From NCBI RefSeq assembly GCF_005887635.2, contig NZ_CP040818.1, positions 1,766,501-1,830,500 on the forward strand: DNA of 64,000 bases, given 5' to 3'. A program made the position numbers and the translations under genes. This document shows, piece after piece, positions 8,720 to 16,168 of this stretch. The number at the start of each line of letters is the position of its first letter. Positions within the stretch are counted from its first letter, which is position 1. The notes beneath the pieces are model-generated. The model was not told the origin of the DNA. It was given only the letters and a program-made list of their open reading frames with translations, and ran no database searches. The stretch comes from Paroceanicella profunda (GTDB lineage: Bacteria > Pseudomonadota > Alphaproteobacteria > Rhodobacterales > Rhodobacteraceae).

Positions 8720-11023
8720 ATGCCCATGATCCACACGCTCGGCGCCCCGCGCATCGGCCCCCGCCGTGAGCTGAAGACCGCGCTGGAAGCCTATTGGGCC
8801 GGGGAGATCGACGCAGCCGCGCTGGAGGAGGCGGGCCGCGACATCCGCCGCCGCAACCGCGCCGACCAGCGCGCCGCCGGCCTGTCCTTCGTCACCGTGG
8901 GGGATTTCTCGTTCTACGACCACGTGCTGGACATGTCGGCCACGCTGGGCGTGGTGCCGGAACGCTTTGGGGCGGCGGAGGCGGAGGTCTCGCTGGACAC
9001 GCGCTTCCGCATGGCCCGGGGCCGCGCGCCCTCCGGCGCCCCGGCCCGGGCCTGCGCGATGAAGAAATGGTTCGACACCAACTACCACTACATCCGCCCG
9101 GAGCTGGAGCCCGGCACCCGCATCCGCCTCGCCTCCACCCGGCTGCTCGACGAGGCCGCGGAGGCGCTGGCGGAGGGCCATCCGGTGAAGGCGGTGCTGC
9201 CCGGCCCGGTGACCTGGGCCTGGCTGGCGCGCGAGAGCGCGGGCGGCCCCACCCGGCTCGGCTGCCTGCCGGCGGTGGCGGAGGTCTATGCCGAGCTGAT
9301 CGGCCGGCTGGCCGGCCTGGGCGTGAACTGGGTGCAGCTGGACGAGCCGGTGCTGGCCACCGACCTGTCCGGGGAGTGGCGCGCCGCCTTCGCGCCGGTT
9401 TACGCCCGGCTGGCCGGGCAGGGCGCGCGGCTGCTGCTGGCGGCCTACTTCGGCCCGCTGGCGGAGAATTTCGACCTGGTGCGGGCCCTGCCGGTGGACG
9501 GGCTGCACCTCGACGCCCTGCGCGGCGGGGACGAGCTGGAGCGCGTGGCGGCGGACTGGCCGGCACCGAAGGTGCTCTCCGCCGGTATCGTGGACGGGCG
9601 CAATGTCTGGCGCTGCGATCTCGACGCGGCGCGCGCCCGGCTCGCCCCGCTGGCCGATGCGCTGGGCGCGCGGCTGTGGCTGGCGCCGTCCTGCGCGCTG
9701 CTGCACGTGCCGGTGGATCTCGCGCAGGAGGAGGAGCTGGACCCGGAGCTGGCCTCCTGGCTGGCCTTCGCGCGGCAGAAGCTCGACGAGCTCGCCCTGC
9801 TCTCCGCCGCGCTGGAGGATGCGGGCGCGCCGGGGGTGGCGGAGGCGCTGGCCCGCTCCCGCGCGGCCCTGGCGGCGCGCCGGACCTCGCATCGCACGCG
9901 CAACCCGGACGTGCGCGCGGCCGCCGCGGCGGTGACCGCGGAAATGGCCCGTCGCGCCAGCCCGCATGCCGAGCGCGCCGTGCTGCAGCGCGCCCGGCTG
10001 AACCTGCCGCTGCTGCCCACCACCACCATCGGCTCCTTCCCGCAGACCGCGGAGATCCGCGCCGCGCGGGCCGCGCGCCGGCGTGGCGAGATCGACGAGG
10101 CCGCCTACCTGCGCCGCATCGGGGCGGCCACGAAGGAGACCATCGCGAAGCAGGAGGAGATCGGGCTCGACGTGCTGGTGCATGGCGAGGCGGAGCGTAA
10201 CGACATGGTGGAGTATTTCGGCGAGCAGTTGCAGGGCTTCGCCTTCACACGGCATGGCTGGGTGCAATCCTACGGCTCGCGCTGCGTGAAGCCGCCGATC
10301 CTGCATGGCGATGTCTCCCGCCCGCGCGCGATGACGGTGGACTGGACGGTCTACGCCCAGTCGCTCACCCCGCGCCCGGTGAAGGGCATGCTCACCGGCC
10401 CTGTGACGCTGCTGAACTGGTCCTTCGTGCGCGACGACCAGCCGCGCGCCGAGACCTGCGCGCAGATCGCCCTCGCCCTGCGCGCCGAGGTGAGCGACCT
10501 GGAGACGGTGGGCATCCGCATCATCCAGATCGACGAGGCCGCCTTCCGCGAGGGCCTGCCGCTGCGCGCCGCCGACCGGGCGGAGTATCTGCGCTGGGCG
10601 GCGGAGGCCTTCCGCCTCACCGCCGGCGTGGTGGGCGACGCGACGCAGATCCACAGCCACATGTGCTACTCGGAGTTCAACGACATCATCGACGCGGTGG
10701 CCGGCATGGACGCCGACGTGGTGACCATCGAGAGCTCGCGCTCGGACATGGAGCTGCTCGACGCCTTCCGCGACTACGATTACCCCAACGAGATCGGGCC
10801 GGGCATCTGGGACATCCACTCGCCCAACGTGCCCTCGGCGCAGGAGATGGCCGGGCTGCTGCGCAAGGCGGCCGGGCGGATCGCGGCCTCGCGGCTCTGG
10901 GTGAACCCCGACTGCGGGCTGAAGACGCGCGGCTGGGCCGAGGTGGAGCCCGCCCTGCGCAACATGGTGGCGGCGGCGCAGGCGCTGCGCGCGGAGATGG
11001 CCGAGGTGTCGGCCGCCGAATAG
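8720..11023 (+). CDS. metE: Cobalamin-independent methionine synthase
   Basis: The 767-residue enzyme transfers the methyl group of 5-methyltetrahydropteroyltri-L-glutamate to homocysteine in the last step of methionine synthesis. Length and both halves are typical. The N-terminal duplicated barrel starts [20 protein letters not shown], and the catalytic barrel begins [12 protein letters not shown]. The zinc ligands are His647 and Cys649 (HMCYSEF), Glu671 ([10 protein letters not shown]) and Cys732 ([11 protein letters not shown]); all four are displaced by six from the E. coli ligands. The start at 8720 has GGAG about 9 bases upstream. It is divergent from metR. B12-independent synthesis implies methionine production does not rely on cobalamin supply. 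Confidence 0.98.
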
Positions 11024-11424: not shown

Positions 11425-11500
11425 CGGCTCTCCGGCTCTCCGGCTCTCCGGCTCTCCGGCTCTCCGGCTCTCCGGCTCTCCGGCTCTCCGGCTCTCCGGC
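11425..11500. repeat. 8-bp tandem repeat, 9.5 copies, in the metE/kinase gap
   Basis: The octamer CGGCTCTC repeats without error nine and a half times. It lies in the 659-base convergent gap between metE and the stress kinase gene. The rest of the gap is GC-rich with no convincing gene: open frames across it have repeat-driven, low-complexity translations. The perfect identity of the copies suggests recent slippage or strong homogenisation, so copy number may vary between isolates. Confidence 0.95.
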
Positions 11501-11682: not shown

Positions 11683-13443
11683 TCAGGCGGGGGTGCTCCG
11701 GCGTGCGGAGGGGGCGAAGGGGGCGCGCAGGCCGAGGGGTTCGAGATCGAATGTCAGGCTCACGTGGAAGAAGTCATCCGTCGTGTCCTGCCGCAGGGTG
11801 GCGTAGAGCTGGCCGGCGAAACCCTCGATGAGGTGGGAGCCGACCCCAGTGCTCTGGGCCAGCGGCTGCGCGTCCGGCGCTGCCGTCATGGAGTTCGACA
11901 CCCGCAGGGTCACCCGGCCGGTGTCGATCTCGCGCAGGCTCACCTTCAGCGTGCCGCCATTGGCGCCGAGCCCGTGCTTGATGGCGTTGGTCACCGTCTC
12001 GCTCACGAAGAGGGTCACCGGCACGGCCTGGTCCGGGGTGAGCTCGACGGGGGCGATGTCGAGCACCGTCTGCACCTTGCCGGAGGTGTCCACCGCCGCG
12101 TGCACCAGGTTCTGCACGATGTCGGACAGGACGGTGTCGGCGCGGATGGACACGAAATCCGCCGAGGTGTAGAGCCGGGCATGCACGGCCGCGAGGCTGG
12201 ACACCCGCTCCTGCAGCCGCTTCAGCGCATTGCGCACGTCTCCCGAGCGGGAGTGGCGCACCTGCATGTTCATGATGCTCACGATGAGCTGGAGGTTGTT
12301 CTTCACCCGGTGATTGATCTCGCGCAGCAGGATGGTCTTCTCCTCCAGCGCGCGCTGCTGCTCGGTCTCGTCCTGGGTGATGGTGGAGGTGAGCGAGGCG
12401 AAGCGCGAGCCGAGGGCGCGGATCTCCTCCGGGGCGTCGCGCAGGATCAGCCCCTCGATGTTGCGCTTGCCGCCCTCGAACTCCGACATCATCCGCACCA
12501 GCCGCGTCACGTGGCGGATCACCAGCCGGTGCATCGCGAGATAGGACACCGCGAGCCCGATGAGCCACATCGTCACCGGCACGATCAGCGCGCTGAACAC
12601 GTCGGCGAAAGCGCTGGGCTGGCCGTTGGCGGTGCTCCAGGTGGCGACGGCGTAGATGTCGCCGTCCAGCACGCTCGCCACCGAGAAGGTGCTGGTCCGC
12701 CCGTCGGCGAGCGGTGCGACGAAGGTGGAGCCGCCGCCCTGCAGATGCGGCTTCAGCGCCCAGGCCGGGGGCAGCTCGATGCGGGACTTCTCCTCCTTGC
12801 GCCGGGCGACGACGTTCCCGTCACCATCGACCAGCACCATGTCGAACACATTCTCGCCGTCCTGCGCCAGCGCCCGCGCGGTCACCACGCCGTAGGGGAT
12901 GGAGATCATCAGGAAGCCGCGCACCGTGCCGCCTTCGCTGATCGGCTCGGTGATCTGCAGGATCTTCTGCTTCGAGACCGGGCCGTATTCCAGCACCCGG
13001 GCCATCGGCCGCGGACGCTCCAGCAACCGCACGAAGCGCGCGTTCTTGCTCAGGTCGAACCCGTCGCCGGAGGAGACACAGTTCATCTTGCCGTCCAGCC
13101 CGATGAACCCGGCGAAGGTGTAGGTGACAGAGCGCGAGGCGAACTGCTCCAGCGTGTCGCTGCACAGCGGGCTGTCGGGCCCGGCGTGCAGCGCCGCGGT
13201 GCCGAGCGCGCGCGCGACCCCGCGCGCCGTGTCGATGATCGCGCTCTCCACGCCGGCGGCATGGATCGTCTCGCCCAGGAGCGCGGCCGCCTGAAGCTTC
13301 CGGCCTTCCTCGACCGAATTCAGCGCCTGCAGCACGGCGATCACGCCGATCGGAAACACCGCGATGGTGAGCAGGAAGGCAATCTGCTTGTAGAGGCTGG
13401 CATTCCGGACCCGGGAAAACTGCCTCGGCCAGCCTGGTTTCAT
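11683..13443 (-). CDS. Membrane HisKA_2 sensor kinase of the general stress response (PhyK-like)
   Basis: A 586-residue sensor kinase. One membrane helix lies near residues 18-40 (QIAFLLTIAVFPIGVIAVL), followed by a periplasmic Cache/CHASE-like sensor of about 240 residues. A second helix lies near 285-305 and then a HAMP-like linker. The HisKA_2 motif REINHRVKNNLQLIVSI has its phospho-acceptor at His378. The ATPase domain follows (VSETVTNAIKHGLGANG, then GVGSHLIEGFAGQL). The start ATG overlaps the ecfG stop in an ATGA. In this class of kinases the phosphoryl group goes to PhyR, which then titrates NepR off EcfG; position next to ecfG, nepR and phyR supports that role (inference). The stimulus is unknown. 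Confidence 0.9.
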   Translation of the reverse strand: MKPGWPRQFSRVRNASLYKQIAFLLTIAVFPIGVIAVLQALNSVEEGRKLQAAALLGETIHAAGVESAIIDTARGVARALGTAALHAGPDSPLCSDTLEQFASRSVTYTFAGFIGLDGKMNCVSSGDGFDLSKNARFVRLLERPRPMARVLEYGPVSKQKILQITEPISEGGTVRGFLMISIPYGVVTARALAQDGENVFDMVLVDGDGNVVARRKEEKSRIELPPAWALKPHLQGGGSTFVAPLADGRTSTFSVASVLDGDIYAVATWSTANGQPSAFADVFSALIVPVTMWLIGLAVSYLAMHRLVIRHVTRLVRMMSEFEGGKRNIEGLILRDAPEEIRALGSRFASLTSTITQDETEQQRALEEKTILLREINHRVKNNLQLIVSIMNMQVRHSRSGDVRNALKRLQERVSSLAAVHARLYTSADFVSIRADTVLSDIVQNLVHAAVDTSGKVQTVLDIAPVELTPDQAVPVTLFVSETVTNAIKHGLGANGGTLKVSLREIDTGRVTLRVSNSMTAAPDAQPLAQSTGVGSHLIEGFAGQLYATLRQDTTDDFFHVSLTFDLEPLGLRAPFAPSARRSTPA

Positions 13444-13991
13444 GAGAGTGTGGATGCCGAGAGGACAGCCAGTGTCGACGCGTCGGCCGTCCCGATCTCC
13501 TCGGCGGACATCTCCATGATCTGGGCCAGCTTCGTGCGGCCCCGGTTCACCCGGCTCTTCATCGTGCCGATGGCGCAGTCGCAGATGCGCGCGGCCTCCT
13601 CATAGGAGAAGCCGGAGGCGCCCACGAGGATCAGTGCCTCGCGCTGGTCGTCGGGCAGGGTGGAGAAGGCCTTCTTGAAGTCGTTGAACTCCATGGCCGA
13701 ATCCTGCGTGGGCTTCTGCATCAGCTTGCCGGAGAACACGCCGTCCACGTCCTGCACCTCGCGCTTTCCCTTGCGCATGTTCGAATAGAAGGTGTTGCGC
13801 AGGATGATGAACAGCCAGGCGCGCAGGTTGGTTCCTTCCTTGAACTTGTCGAAATTCGTCCAGGCCTTCACGATGGTATCCTGCACGAGATCGTCCGCGG
13901 CGGAATGATCGCGGGTGAGCGAGCGCGCAAAGGCGCGCATCGACGGGATCAGCGTGACCAGTTCTTCGCGGGGGTCAAGCTTATCGGTCAT
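13440..13991 (-). CDS. ecfG: ECF sigma factor of the general stress response, EcfG
   Basis: This 183-residue ECF15-type sigma factor shows region 2 with DHSAADDLVQDTIVKAWTNFDKF and LRAWLFIILRNTFYSNMRK, and region 4 with LPDDQREALILVGASGFSYEEAARI and GTMKSRVNRGRTKL. The GTMKSRVNRGR helix contacts the -35 element GGAAC in the family. Its start overlaps the end of nepR by 11 bases and its stop overlaps the kinase start, so nepR, ecfG and kinase form one translationally coupled unit. Promoter motifs with GGAAC-N16/17-CGTT occur upstream of nepR, phyR and a small membrane-protein gene in this window, consistent with autoregulation. It acts on RNA polymerase in the cytoplasm. Confidence 0.95.
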   Translation of the reverse strand: MTDKLDPREELVTLIPSMRAFARSLTRDHSAADDLVQDTIVKAWTNFDKFKEGTNLRAWLFIILRNTFYSNMRKGKREVQDVDGVFSGKLMQKPTQDSAMEFNDFKKAFSTLPDDQREALILVGASGFSYEEAARICDCAIGTMKSRVNRGRTKLAQIMEMSAEEIGTADASTLAVLSASTLS

Positions 13992-14163
13992 CGTCGGACT
14001 TTCCCTTGGGCTCGCCCGCCTTCAGCTGGGCAAGAAGGTCCGTGAACCGGTCCGGCAGCGCCTCGGACACGGCCTCATTGTAGACTTTCCGCAAGTTCTC
14101 CTCGATTTGCCGGTCGATCGCATCGCGACCCGGATCAGCGGCAGACAGATCTTTCCGCACCAT
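13981..14163 (-). CDS. nepR: Anti-sigma factor NepR
   Basis: A 60-residue protein that holds EcfG inactive until phosphorylated PhyR binds it. The core motif IDRQIEENLRKVYNEAVSEALPDRFTDLLAQL matches the two-helix NepR family, with the characteristic lengths between the helices. The start at 14163 (MVRKDLSAAD) was chosen because it gives the usual NepR length and AGGG lies about 7 bases upstream. A longer open frame reaching 14313 would run through the divergent promoter and into phyR and was rejected. It is the first gene of the nepR-ecfG-kinase unit and opposes phyR across a 109-base gap. Confidence 0.92.
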   Translation of the reverse strand: MVRKDLSAADPGRDAIDRQIEENLRKVYNEAVSEALPDRFTDLLAQLKAGEPKGKSDDDR

Positions 14164-14203
14164 TTCGAACCCTAACTTTTTTGCGCAGCGCATTCGCGTG
14201 TTG

Positions 14204-14229
14204 GGAACCAAACGCACCGACGCTGCGTT
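14204..14229 (+). promoter_or_regulatory. EcfG-type promoter of phyR
   Basis: GGAAC at 14204-14208, a 17-base spacer, then CGTT at 14226-14229 fit the alphaproteobacterial general-stress promoter exactly. Transcription would start near 14236, leaving a leader of about 37 bases with a good ribosome site (GAGAGGA) before the phyR ATG at 14273. Confidence 0.85.
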
Positions 14230-14235
14230 GGTTCC
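14211..14235 (-). promoter_or_regulatory. EcfG-type promoter of nepR-ecfG-kinase
   Basis: Read on the minus strand: GGAAC (14235-14231), a 16-base spacer, CGTT (14214-14211). Transcription would start near 14204 and reach nepR at 14163. This promoter lies almost entirely on top of the opposing phyR promoter; the two together form a near-perfect inverted repeat. Confidence 0.85.
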
Positions 14236-14272
14236 CCCAATGAGCTCAAAAAATCCTGAGAGGACTTTGTAA

Positions 14273-15091
14273 ATGCCCCAGGCCCAGACCGCCACCGATC
14301 TGTCTTCCACCATCGCGGCGGAATTGCCTTACCTCCGTCGCTATGCCCGTGCCCTCACCGGCACCCAGGCGCGCGGAGACGGGTATGCCGCGGCCACTCT
14401 CGAAGCGCTGATCGCGGATCGCGAAGCCTTCGACGTGTCGCTCGCGCCGCGCGTTGCCCTCTTCAAGGTCTTCCACACGATCTGGAGCACCTCGGGCGGC
14501 GCCATCGAGGAGCCGGCGGAGGACATCGACCCGCTGGAGCGGGTGGCGCAGCAGCGTCTGGCCGACCTCACCCCACATACGCGTGAGGCCGTGCTGCTGA
14601 GTGCGCTGGAAGGATTCGGGACACCGGAGATCTCCGCAGTGATGAACGTATCCGAAGCCGAGGCAGACAATCTGGTCCGCATTGGTGAAGAAGAAGTTAA
14701 GAGCCGCCTCACCGGCCGCATCCTGATCATCGAGGACGAGCCGATCATCGCCATGGACATCCGCTCCATCGTGACCGCGATGGACCACGCCTGTGTCGGC
14801 ATCGCCCGCACCCGCGACGAGGCGGTGCGCATGTATGCCGAGAACGAGGTCGACCTCGTGCTGGCCGACATCCAGCTCGCCGACGGCTCCTCGGGCATCG
14901 ACGCCGCGCATGACATCCTCAGCGTGAATTCGGCCACTCCGATCATCTTCATCACCGCCTTCCCCGAGCGCCTGCTCACCGGCGAGCGCCCGGAGCCGAC
15001 GTTCCTGATCTCCAAGCCCTTCAAGGAAGAGCAGGTGCGGGCCGCCGTCAGCCAGGCGCTGTTCTTCTCCTCCACGGCGCGGATGAGCTGA
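14273..15091 (+). CDS. phyR: General stress response regulator PhyR
   Basis: This 272-residue two-domain regulator has a sigma-factor-like N-terminal half (LPYLRRYARALTGTQARGD, and a region-4-like TREAVLLSALEGFGTPEISAVMNVS) that mimics EcfG for NepR binding, and a C-terminal receiver domain. The receiver shows IIEDEPIIAMDI, the phosphoacceptor Asp199 in LADIQLADGSSGID, the conserved Thr in FITAFPE, and Lys in SKPF. When phosphorylated, PhyR exposes the sigma-like half and sequesters NepR. Start at 14273 with an upstream GAGAGGA. It is divergent from nepR and shares the overlapping EcfG promoter region. A strong bidirectional terminator separates it from dps. Confidence 0.97.
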   Translation: MPQAQTATDLSSTIAAELPYLRRYARALTGTQARGDGYAAATLEALIADREAFDVSLAPRVALFKVFHTIWSTSGGAIEEPAEDIDPLERVAQQRLADLTPHTREAVLLSALEGFGTPEISAVMNVSEAEADNLVRIGEEEVKSRLTGRILIIEDEPIIAMDIRSIVTAMDHACVGIARTRDEAVRMYAENEVDLVLADIQLADGSSGIDAAHDILSVNSATPIIFITAFPERLLTGERPEPTFLISKPFKEEQVRAAVSQALFFSSTARMS

Positions 15092-15130
15092 GCGCCCGTT
15101 CCCCGGGTTCCGGCCCCGGCGGGAGACATG

Positions 15131-15166
15131 AAAAGCCCCCCGGCCGTGTGGCCGGGGGGCTTTTTT
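15131..15166. terminator. Bidirectional intrinsic terminator between phyR and dps
   Basis: AAAAGCCCCCCGGCC, a GTGT loop and GGCCGGGGGGCTTTTTT make an 11-bp GC stem flanked by A4 and T6. It can terminate both converging transcripts, phyR from the left and dps from the right. This is the clearest rho-independent terminator in the window. Confidence 0.93.
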
Positions 15167-15220
15167 CGTGCGGTGGTCAGGGCGCGCGCCGGTCTCGCCT
15201 CGCCCGTCATGCCTCGCCCG

Positions 15221-15724
15221 TCACGCTTCGTCAGTCATCGCCCGCAGCATCCAGGCGGCCTTCTCGTGCACGGAGGAGCGCGCGATGGCGAGGTCGCCGG
15301 TCACGTCGTCGTCATTGTCCTCGGCGAGGCGGATCAGCTTGTGGAGCCGCTTGGCAAGCTGCTCGTGGTCCTTGCGCAGGTCGTCGATCATCTCGCCGGC
15401 GGAGGGGCGCTTGTCGAGATCCTTGACCGCGGAATTGCTGGCCATGTCGGCGAAGCGCATCGGGGTCACCTGGCCGAGGGCGCGGATCCGTTCGGCCAGC
15501 ACGTCGGCGGCCTCGAACAGGTCCTGGTACTGCTCCTCGGTGAGGTGGTGGATCGAGTAGAACAGCGGCCCGGTCACGTTCCAGTGGTAGGTGTGGGTCT
15601 TGAACAGCAGGCGGTAGGTGTCCGCCAGAACTTCCTCCAGTCCGGCAGCCACCTTGGCGCGGTGGGTCACGCCGGTGTCCATCGAACGGGTTGCGGTCGG
15701 GGTAGCCTTGAGGGGCGAAGCCAT
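15221..15724 (-). CDS. dps: Dps family ferritin-like DNA protection protein
   Basis: A 167-residue Dps-type protein. These proteins form dodecamers that oxidise and store iron using peroxide and can protect DNA. Ferroxidase residues typical of the family are visible: His in FKTHTYHWNVTGPLF, then Asp and Glu in HHLTEEQYQDLFEAADVLAERI. The remaining helices follow in order (SAGEMIDDLRKDHEQLAKRLHKLI, then DLAIARSSVHEKAAWMLRAM). The start at 15724 has AAGGAAG nearby upstream. It converges on phyR and sits beside the stress locus, where Dps genes are often controlled by EcfG. However, no GGAAC-CGTT promoter was found in the 210 bases upstream, so regulation is open. Confidence 0.93.
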   Translation of the reverse strand: MASPLKATPTATRSMDTGVTHRAKVAAGLEEVLADTYRLLFKTHTYHWNVTGPLFYSIHHLTEEQYQDLFEAADVLAERIRALGQVTPMRFADMASNSAVKDLDKRPSAGEMIDDLRKDHEQLAKRLHKLIRLAEDNDDDVTGDLAIARSSVHEKAAWMLRAMTDEA

Positions 15725-15934: not shown

Positions 15935-16111
15935 TCACATGCGCGGCGGCTGACCGCGAACGGCACGCGCCACGAGCGCGATCACGAACAGAACCAGGAA
16001 CACGAAGAACAGGATCTGCGCGATACCCGCGGAAGCCGATGCAATGCCGCCAAAGCCGAATACGGCCGCGACAATCGCCACGATCAGGAAGACAACAGCC
16101 CAGTACAGCAT
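15935..16111 (-). CDS. Small membrane protein, DUF1328/UPF0391
   Basis: This 58-residue protein has two hydrophobic helices ([22 protein letters not shown] and [20 protein letters not shown]) and a short basic tail ([11 protein letters not shown]), the standard DUF1328 pattern. The start at 16111 has GGAG 9 bases upstream. A longer in-frame extension to 16342 is low-complexity and would read through the promoter, so it was rejected. A perfect EcfG-type promoter lies about 30 bases before the start. Function is unknown; the family is often found among envelope and general-stress genes. Confidence 0.92.
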
Positions 16112-16142: not shown

Positions 16143-16168
16143 AACGTGAGGCGGCGTGGAAAAGTTCC
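16143..16168 (-). promoter_or_regulatory. EcfG-type promoter of the DUF1328 gene
   Basis: On the minus strand GGAAC (16168-16164), 17-base spacer, CGTT (16146-16143) match the general stress consensus fully. The predicted start near 16136 leaves a 25-base leader that still contains the GGAG ribosome site. Confidence 0.85.

Follow-up and report, generated by a model that had tools for sequence, protein, structure and literature searches.

How can the releaser and the restraint of one sigma factor be transcribed from the same few bases of DNA? The question is raised by a locus of Paroceanicella profunda, analyzed here within a stretch of 64,000 nucleotides (the window), in which the predicted promoters of phyR and of nepR-ecfG occupy one short segment. 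In alphaproteobacteria, the nepR-ecfG and phyR units are divergent and both are driven by EcfG (PMC8103513, PMC4814048), and it has been suggested earlier that co-regulation of the two keeps a useful stoichiometry (PMC4814048). The EcfG consensus has been given as GGAAC-N16-17-C/GGTT (PMC12148442), GAAC-N16,17-C/GGTT (PMC4814048), and GGAAC-N16-CGTT (PMC7083833).

Judged by their profile matches, the identities of PhyR, NepR, the ECF sigma factor, and the HWE/HisKA2 kinase are secure (Table 1). Their arrangement is that of a PhyR-NepR-EcfG general stress response locus, with nepR-ecfG divergent from phyR and an HWE kinase present. The nepR start was picked by eye from a ribosome-site-like AGGG, and another in-frame ATG lies upstream. 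Several further features were noted around these genes. The neighbor of phyR is a ferritin-like gene (15221-15724, minus strand; PF00210) with a Dps-type reading, plausible as a stress gene; the genome motif search found no exact EcfG site ahead of it. Directly 3' of phyR, a G+C-rich hairpin with a T run (15131-15167) was seen by eye and was not reported by the terminator scan. A perfect 8-base tandem repeat, CGGCTCTC, runs for 9.5 copies (11425-11500) in the gap that separates the kinase gene from the methionine synthase gene (8720-11023).

Table 1. Positions in the window of the predicted promoter elements and of the genes around them
Feature	Position	Strand	Basis and remarks
Predicted interlocked bidirectional EcfG promoter	14203..14236	.	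dyad 14203-14216 / 14224-14236, 7-nt center
Predicted phyR-ward -35, GGAAC	14204..14208	+	sequence and motif search; 1.8-2.0 bits/base in the two commonest spacing classes
Predicted phyR-ward -10, CGTT	14226..14229	+	spacer 17; sequence, motif search, family loci
Predicted nepR-ward -35, GGAAC	14231..14235 (read 14235-14231)	-	sequence, motif search, family loci; absent from loci L044 and L065
Predicted nepR-ward -10, CGTT	14211..14214 (read 14214-14211)	-	spacer 16; sequence, motif search, family loci
phyR, anti-anti-sigma response regulator, 272 aa	14273..15091	+	ORF; PF22029, PF22233, PF00072; NF006623
nepR, anti-sigma factor	13981..14163	-	ORF 13981-14313; PF18557 NepR
ecfG, ECF sigma factor of the general stress response, 183 aa	13440..13991	-	PF04542, PF08281; NF009198
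HWE/HisKA2 sensor kinase gene, overlapping the end of ecfG	11683..13443	-	PF07568, PF07536; NF051872 PhyK below cut-off
Third EcfG-type site, one-way, GGAAC-N17-CGTT, ahead of the DUF1328 gene	16143..16168	-	G000:C1:1782643-1782668
DUF1328 gene	15935-16111	-	PF07043

A preliminary description of this DNA had placed two EcfG promoters on opposite strands between nepR-ecfG and phyR, and their coordinates proved exact both in the sequence and in an EcfG pattern search of the window's genome, which listed both sites (G000:C1:1780704-1780729 on the plus strand and 1780711-1780735 on the minus strand). Both strands fit the published consensus, with CGTT following GGAAC after 17 nt (plus) or 16 nt (minus). 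As also described there, the -35 of each promoter lies beside the -10 of the other; the two are one or two bases apart, and the near-perfect inverted repeat formed by this symmetric overlap is real: all 13 bases of the right arm (14224-14236) are paired, while the left arm (14203-14216) carries one extra A. The dyad was not listed when the window was scanned with a gapless inverted-repeat finder, which is expected because of the extra A. The plus-strand -10 ends 43 nt before the phyR ATG (14273), and the minus-strand -10 lies 47 nt from the preferred nepR ATG (14163). A search of 14000-15300 for a sigma-70-like promoter found none. Two further observations concern the flanks. An outer inverted repeat, TTTTTTGCGC / GCTCAAAAAA (14177-14186 and 14244-14253), flanks the interlock off-center, and an A-rich stretch beyond the right -35 is also visible in the family profiles.

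We consider it quite probable that this 32-bp segment is a bidirectional promoter for EcfG RNA polymerase with mutually exclusive docking. Here and in many relatives, nepR-ecfG and phyR probably start from this common 32-base stretch, which would serve one use at a time. Two complete EcfG promoters pointing opposite ways would be interwoven, with the -10 of each lying in the spacer of the other and the -35 of each just past the -10 of the other. Under stress, PhyR would be phosphorylated and would remove NepR from EcfG, following the published pathway (PMC8103513), and EcfG polymerase could then bind the segment in either orientation. Rightward docking would lead to phyR, and leftward docking to nepR-ecfG and probably the kinase gene. 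We infer both the dependence on EcfG and the start sites at the segment. Both transcripts are expected to begin close to the segment's outer edges and hence not to overlap. A polymerase bound in one orientation is strongly expected to exclude the other, because the core of each promoter falls within the footprint of the other. Initiations would thus be split between the releaser and the restraint plus sigma factor, in a mean proportion that would be set by the promoter strengths and not by the amount of free EcfG.

A lone EcfG motif is weak evidence, because the motif with spacers of 15-18 matched the window's genome 109 times, compared with 94 matches for the backwards pattern. The interlocked pair was found in none of 26,800 dinucleotide shuffles of the family's nepR-phyR regions. 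Furthermore, exact interlock patterns were found in 41 of 198 genomes of the family (Rhodobacteraceae), a sample taken from a larger group. Many of the 198 lack a full-length PhyR match, so that the share among PhyR-bearing genomes is higher. In each of the 41 genomes, the pattern occurred in one place, 28-121 bases from a PhyR match. The pattern in which two bases separate the plus -10 from the opposing -35 was present in 39 genomes, that with a single base in 10, and both in 8, while backwards-control interlock patterns had no match in any of the 198 family genomes. On the strength of the shuffles and of these controls, chance pairing was rejected.

The symmetry that the preliminary description singled out is kept among relatives. 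The family sample comprised 136 non-redundant loci, in 134 of which nepR was found divergent from phyR. The loci were collected from PhyR searches of the family, genus, and order (the order contributing 25 new loci from a longer list), from 60 extra stretches, and from named contigs, where family members among the best 80 of 553 were taken and L172-L199, L202, and L205 were counted as family, although some of these are labeled Neomegalonema or merely Alphaproteobacteria bacterium. Partial PhyR matches (e.g., G114, G142, G022, G031, and G171:C2) and a distant paralogue (L102; 41% identity) were excluded. A pair was scored when the first bases of the two -35s lay 29-32 apart, both spacers were 16 or 17, and at most 2 of 18 positions mismatched. 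By this rule, whose thresholds were fixed after the first loci had been inspected, 114 of the 134 loci with a divergent nepR carry the pair, 55 of them perfectly; the 114 loci are kin and therefore do not represent 114 independent events. Among the named loci, L177 (Acidimangrovimonas sediminis) holds an exact pair and L173 (Limimaricola pyoseonensis) a pair with one mismatch. When spacers of 15-18 were permitted, 16 or 17 was still used by 80 of 83 plus sites and 82 of 83 minus sites in the family pairs. Among the 20 loci without a full pair, three have both -35s at the right distance, 13 have the nepR-ward promoter only, two have both promoters placed otherwise, and two have neither; pairing is therefore dispensable.

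Offsets of 31 with (16,16) spacers and of 32 with (17,17) spacers define the two commonest spacing classes, which together hold 76 of the 114 paired loci (44 + 32). In both classes, the two -35s and the GTT of the two -10s reach 1.7-2.0 bits and the center 0-0.3, where selection of loci by the core positions inflates the core values and leaves the empty center unaffected; the profiles of the smaller classes are noisier. In the other genome of the genus (G198, locus L031), four bases of the segment differ, all within 14216-14223 and outside the four elements. Conservation of the overlap alone is no proof of selection for overlap, because the constraint on each promoter by itself freezes the arrangement.

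Beyond the family, a class sample of 64 loci was divided into 35 with a divergent nepR and 29 in which none was detected. Of the former, 13 are back to back, four are interlocked (three from family f42 and one from f149), and 18 are neither; of the latter, 27 show no geometry, one is interlocked (L157), and one is back to back. The back-to-back form, in which the -35s lie close together as GTTCC-N6 to N9-GGAAC (typically N8, once N13), is the commonest recognized arrangement outside the family and is a second recurrent way to put the nepR and phyR promoters close to each other. At loci L107, L109, L113, L119, L120, L122, L125, L126, L129, L131, and L232, the back-to-back -35s are 6-9 bases apart, and several back-to-back loci have T runs after the -35s (GGAACTTTTTTT). 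None of 49 named loci outside the family, taken among the best 80 of 553, was interlocked by the pair rule. An offset-26 pairing at Sphingomonas and f37 loci was dropped as a candidate: in the Sphingomonas loci examined, its left half GAAACC reads as the nepR-ward -10 (GGTTTC), and no phyR-ward -35 was seen. In f37 (L136, L140, and L141), GGAACC lies 26 bases from an opposed GGTTCC ahead of phyR, an arrangement in which a GGTT -10 could sit inside the opposing -35.

In family f42, five of the six readable PhyR loci are interlocked (L252-L256), with CATT as the plus -10 and with a center that is conserved too (GGGGAAGGCCCC-like); in the sixth (L257) the opposing -35 is absent, and a seventh locus is partial. 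In a quick PhyR tree, f42 lies across a branch of 100% SH-aLRT from the window's family. Over 115 rows, this tree implies 9 changes between the interlocked and non-interlocked states, gains and losses together, and it places the interlock in early-branching lineages of the family, the window's included, with inheritance thereafter. The tree thus suggests an independent origin of the f42 interlock, yet f42 and the window's family as one clade were not rejected (p-AU 0.283; 81 rows after removal of long branches and thinning), so that no independent origin is claimed.

How far the shared site would matter for regulation was explored with a steady-state toy model (1500 random parameter sets, arbitrary parameters) and with a firing simulation with equal promoters. 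In the toy model, the phyR:nepR initiation ratio was constant with signal at a shared site (log2 range, 0.00), whereas with separate promoters it drifted (log2 range: median, 0.26; 95th percentile, 3.97). In the firing simulation, the two directions were anticorrelated at a busy shared site (-0.21 to -0.25) and uncorrelated with separate sites (about 0). Under busy conditions, output was 16.5-16.8 firings per interval at the shared site versus 24.9-25.2 at separate sites, and the variance of the difference over the mean was 1.94-1.95 versus 0.98-1.37. This larger short-term imbalance counts against a ratio lock in single cells. The locked PhyR:NepR ratio that had been proposed for this locus thus survives in part: the mean initiation ratio stays constant in the toy model, but the momentary ratio does not, and its imbalance grows when the site is busy.

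Our further suggestion is that the segment may be a selected stoichiometric splitter, which would make the EcfG polymerase take a single orientation at each docking and so hold the mean output of PhyR constant against that of NepR-EcfG at every stress level, and that this coupling has more than one origin, with the interlocked form in Rhodobacteraceae and f42 and the back-to-back form with adjoining -35s elsewhere; we regard this combined claim as tentative and rather doubtful. One observation speaks against the bidirectional promoter that we propose: in Rhodobacter sphaeroides, membrane stress was reported to raise ecfG mRNA in a PhyR-dependent manner, with phyR mRNA hardly changed (PMC5830050), a pattern that does not look like a fixed split if that species has the interlock.

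A rival account, which we hold somewhat short of probable, is that the overlap is frozen and has no regulatory effect: the promoters would be real, would have come to overlap once in an ancestor, would since have been inseparable, and would fire too rarely to interfere. The geometry is self-freezing: inserting or deleting bases in either gap changes the length of one spacer, and doing so in the center changes both. The concentration of loci in two spacing classes, as well as the inheritance of the interlock from early-branching lineages in the quick tree, agree with such a history. As reported for E. coli bidirectional promoters, competition arose only when one direction was strongly activated, and all five promoters tested were too weak for it at the basal level (PMC12825309); competition therefore needs busy promoters. 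Against a frozen overlap, the same geometry recurs in f42 across the well-supported branch, with the reservation that one clade was not rejected, and stress induction could push activity into the competing range.

The dyad could also be the operator of a dimeric repressor or activator, with the EcfG matches incidental or secondary. Both the near-perfect inverted repeat and the conserved center in f42 are what such an operator might show. However, among loci of the window's family that belong to the two commonest classes, it is the center that is nearly empty and the EcfG elements, with spacers of 16 or 17, that are kept. In addition, L044 and L065, the two family loci for which a divergent nepR was not detected, retain one promoter without the symmetry. 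We therefore consider an operator highly unlikely.

Next, we asked whether both halves of the segment are promoters. If only one direction were used, the other half would reflect an extended, fortuitously symmetric -35/-10 preference of EcfG. As a one-way control, we took the EcfG promoter ahead of the DUF1328 gene at 28 loci, three of them outside the family (L106, L113, and L125); an EcfG site with at most one mismatch was found in 25 of the 28. The bases AAC directly follow the -35 in one of these 25 one-way promoters, compared with 105 (plus) and 107 (minus) of the 114 interlocks, whose selection required an opposing -10 with no more than one mismatch; the unselected bounds, 105 and 107 of 134, are still far above 1/25. 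A generic extended -35 was rejected on this comparison, with one caveat from the Sphingomonas loci examined, where CAACG often follows the nepR-ward -35 although no phyR-ward -35 was seen, so that AAC after a -35 is possible without an opposing promoter. Many of the Sphingomonas-type loci examined (e.g., L208, L225, and L241) carry a nepR-ward GGAACC(A/T)(A/T)CG...GGTTTC. The CAACG at such loci is what a single-direction promoter has in its favor; the rarity of AAC in the one-way promoters speaks against it, as do the full -35/-10 pairs on both strands, at offsets of 29-32, in 114 of 134 family loci, and we judge it very improbable indeed. L044 and L065 retain the phyR-ward promoter and lack the opposing -35, a natural loss that agrees with two promoters. 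Since these two loci are phyR-ward only and 13 others are nepR-ward only, each half can disappear without the other, and symmetry for its own sake is not what is being kept. Collectively, the comparisons support the view that both sites look like working EcfG promoters, as predicted from their motifs.

The preliminary description had also raised a toggle, a bistable switch between PhyR-rich and NepR-rich states; exclusive docking, which the anatomy makes probable, would suit such a switch, and some bistability appeared in the toy model when the site was shared (18 of 1500 parameter sets), but the same sigma factor activates both promoters and more sets were bistable when the sites were separate (87 of 1500), so that we rejected the toggle as a likely working and find it scarcely credible. 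We know of no product of either side, PhyR or NepR-EcfG, that favors its own direction. Because a shared site made the mean ratio constant, the short-term imbalance larger, and bistability rarer in the models, a toggle is unlikely; a divider of initiations, with the mean ratio fixed and the momentary ratio not, fits better.

The bidirectional EcfG promoter that we propose shares much with known systems. The divergent EcfG-dependent nepR-ecfG and phyR promoters of other alphaproteobacteria (PMC8103513, PMC4814048) have the same genes, sigma factor, motif, and autoregulation; no overlap is mentioned in the text compared, whereas here the two are interlocked. Among related bacteria, general stress response loci have been treated in Rubellimicrobium thermophilum, where EcfG promoters were predicted at these loci (PMC12148442), and in R. 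sphaeroides, where starts mapped by differential RNA sequencing put the nepR-ecfG promoter on DNA opposite annotated phyR coding sequence (PMC5830050). In the text compared from these reports, no overlap is described. Warman, Grainger, and colleagues described bidirectional promoters in E. coli and other prokaryotes (PMC12825309), which are likewise pseudo-symmetric and take polymerase in two orientations; there, one binding event excludes the other and divergent mRNAs are made. What makes those promoters symmetric is a sigma-70 -10 element used in both directions. By their definition, the divergent starts lie within one shared -10 or on either side of it, and the distance between starts is most often 18 bp, with 10 and 23 bp also common. 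In contrast, two complete ECF promoters would be interleaved here with no element shared, and their -10s are separate (14211-14214 and 14226-14229). We predict a distance of about 30-35 bp between the starts, and a single site of this kind is conserved across much of a bacterial family. In the open-access literature searched, we found no description of the interlocked ECF form. Divergent EcfG-driven units and exclusive pseudo-symmetric sigma-70 promoters are thus known, and the conserved interlocked ECF form is apparently new with respect to that literature.

A titration switch built from a sigma factor, an anti-sigma factor, and an anti-anti-sigma factor depends on the ratio of its parts. If the docking site is shared, the mean initiation ratio would be fixed at any level of active sigma factor, with no extra regulator. 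If true, this would carry the bidirectional promoter beyond sigma-70 to an ECF sigma factor. In this family, where one site is conserved at over 100 related loci and either half has been lost naturally at some loci, the effect of the overlap can be tested. Annotators also learn from the arrangement what signals a nepR-phyR gap of the family can be expected to hold.
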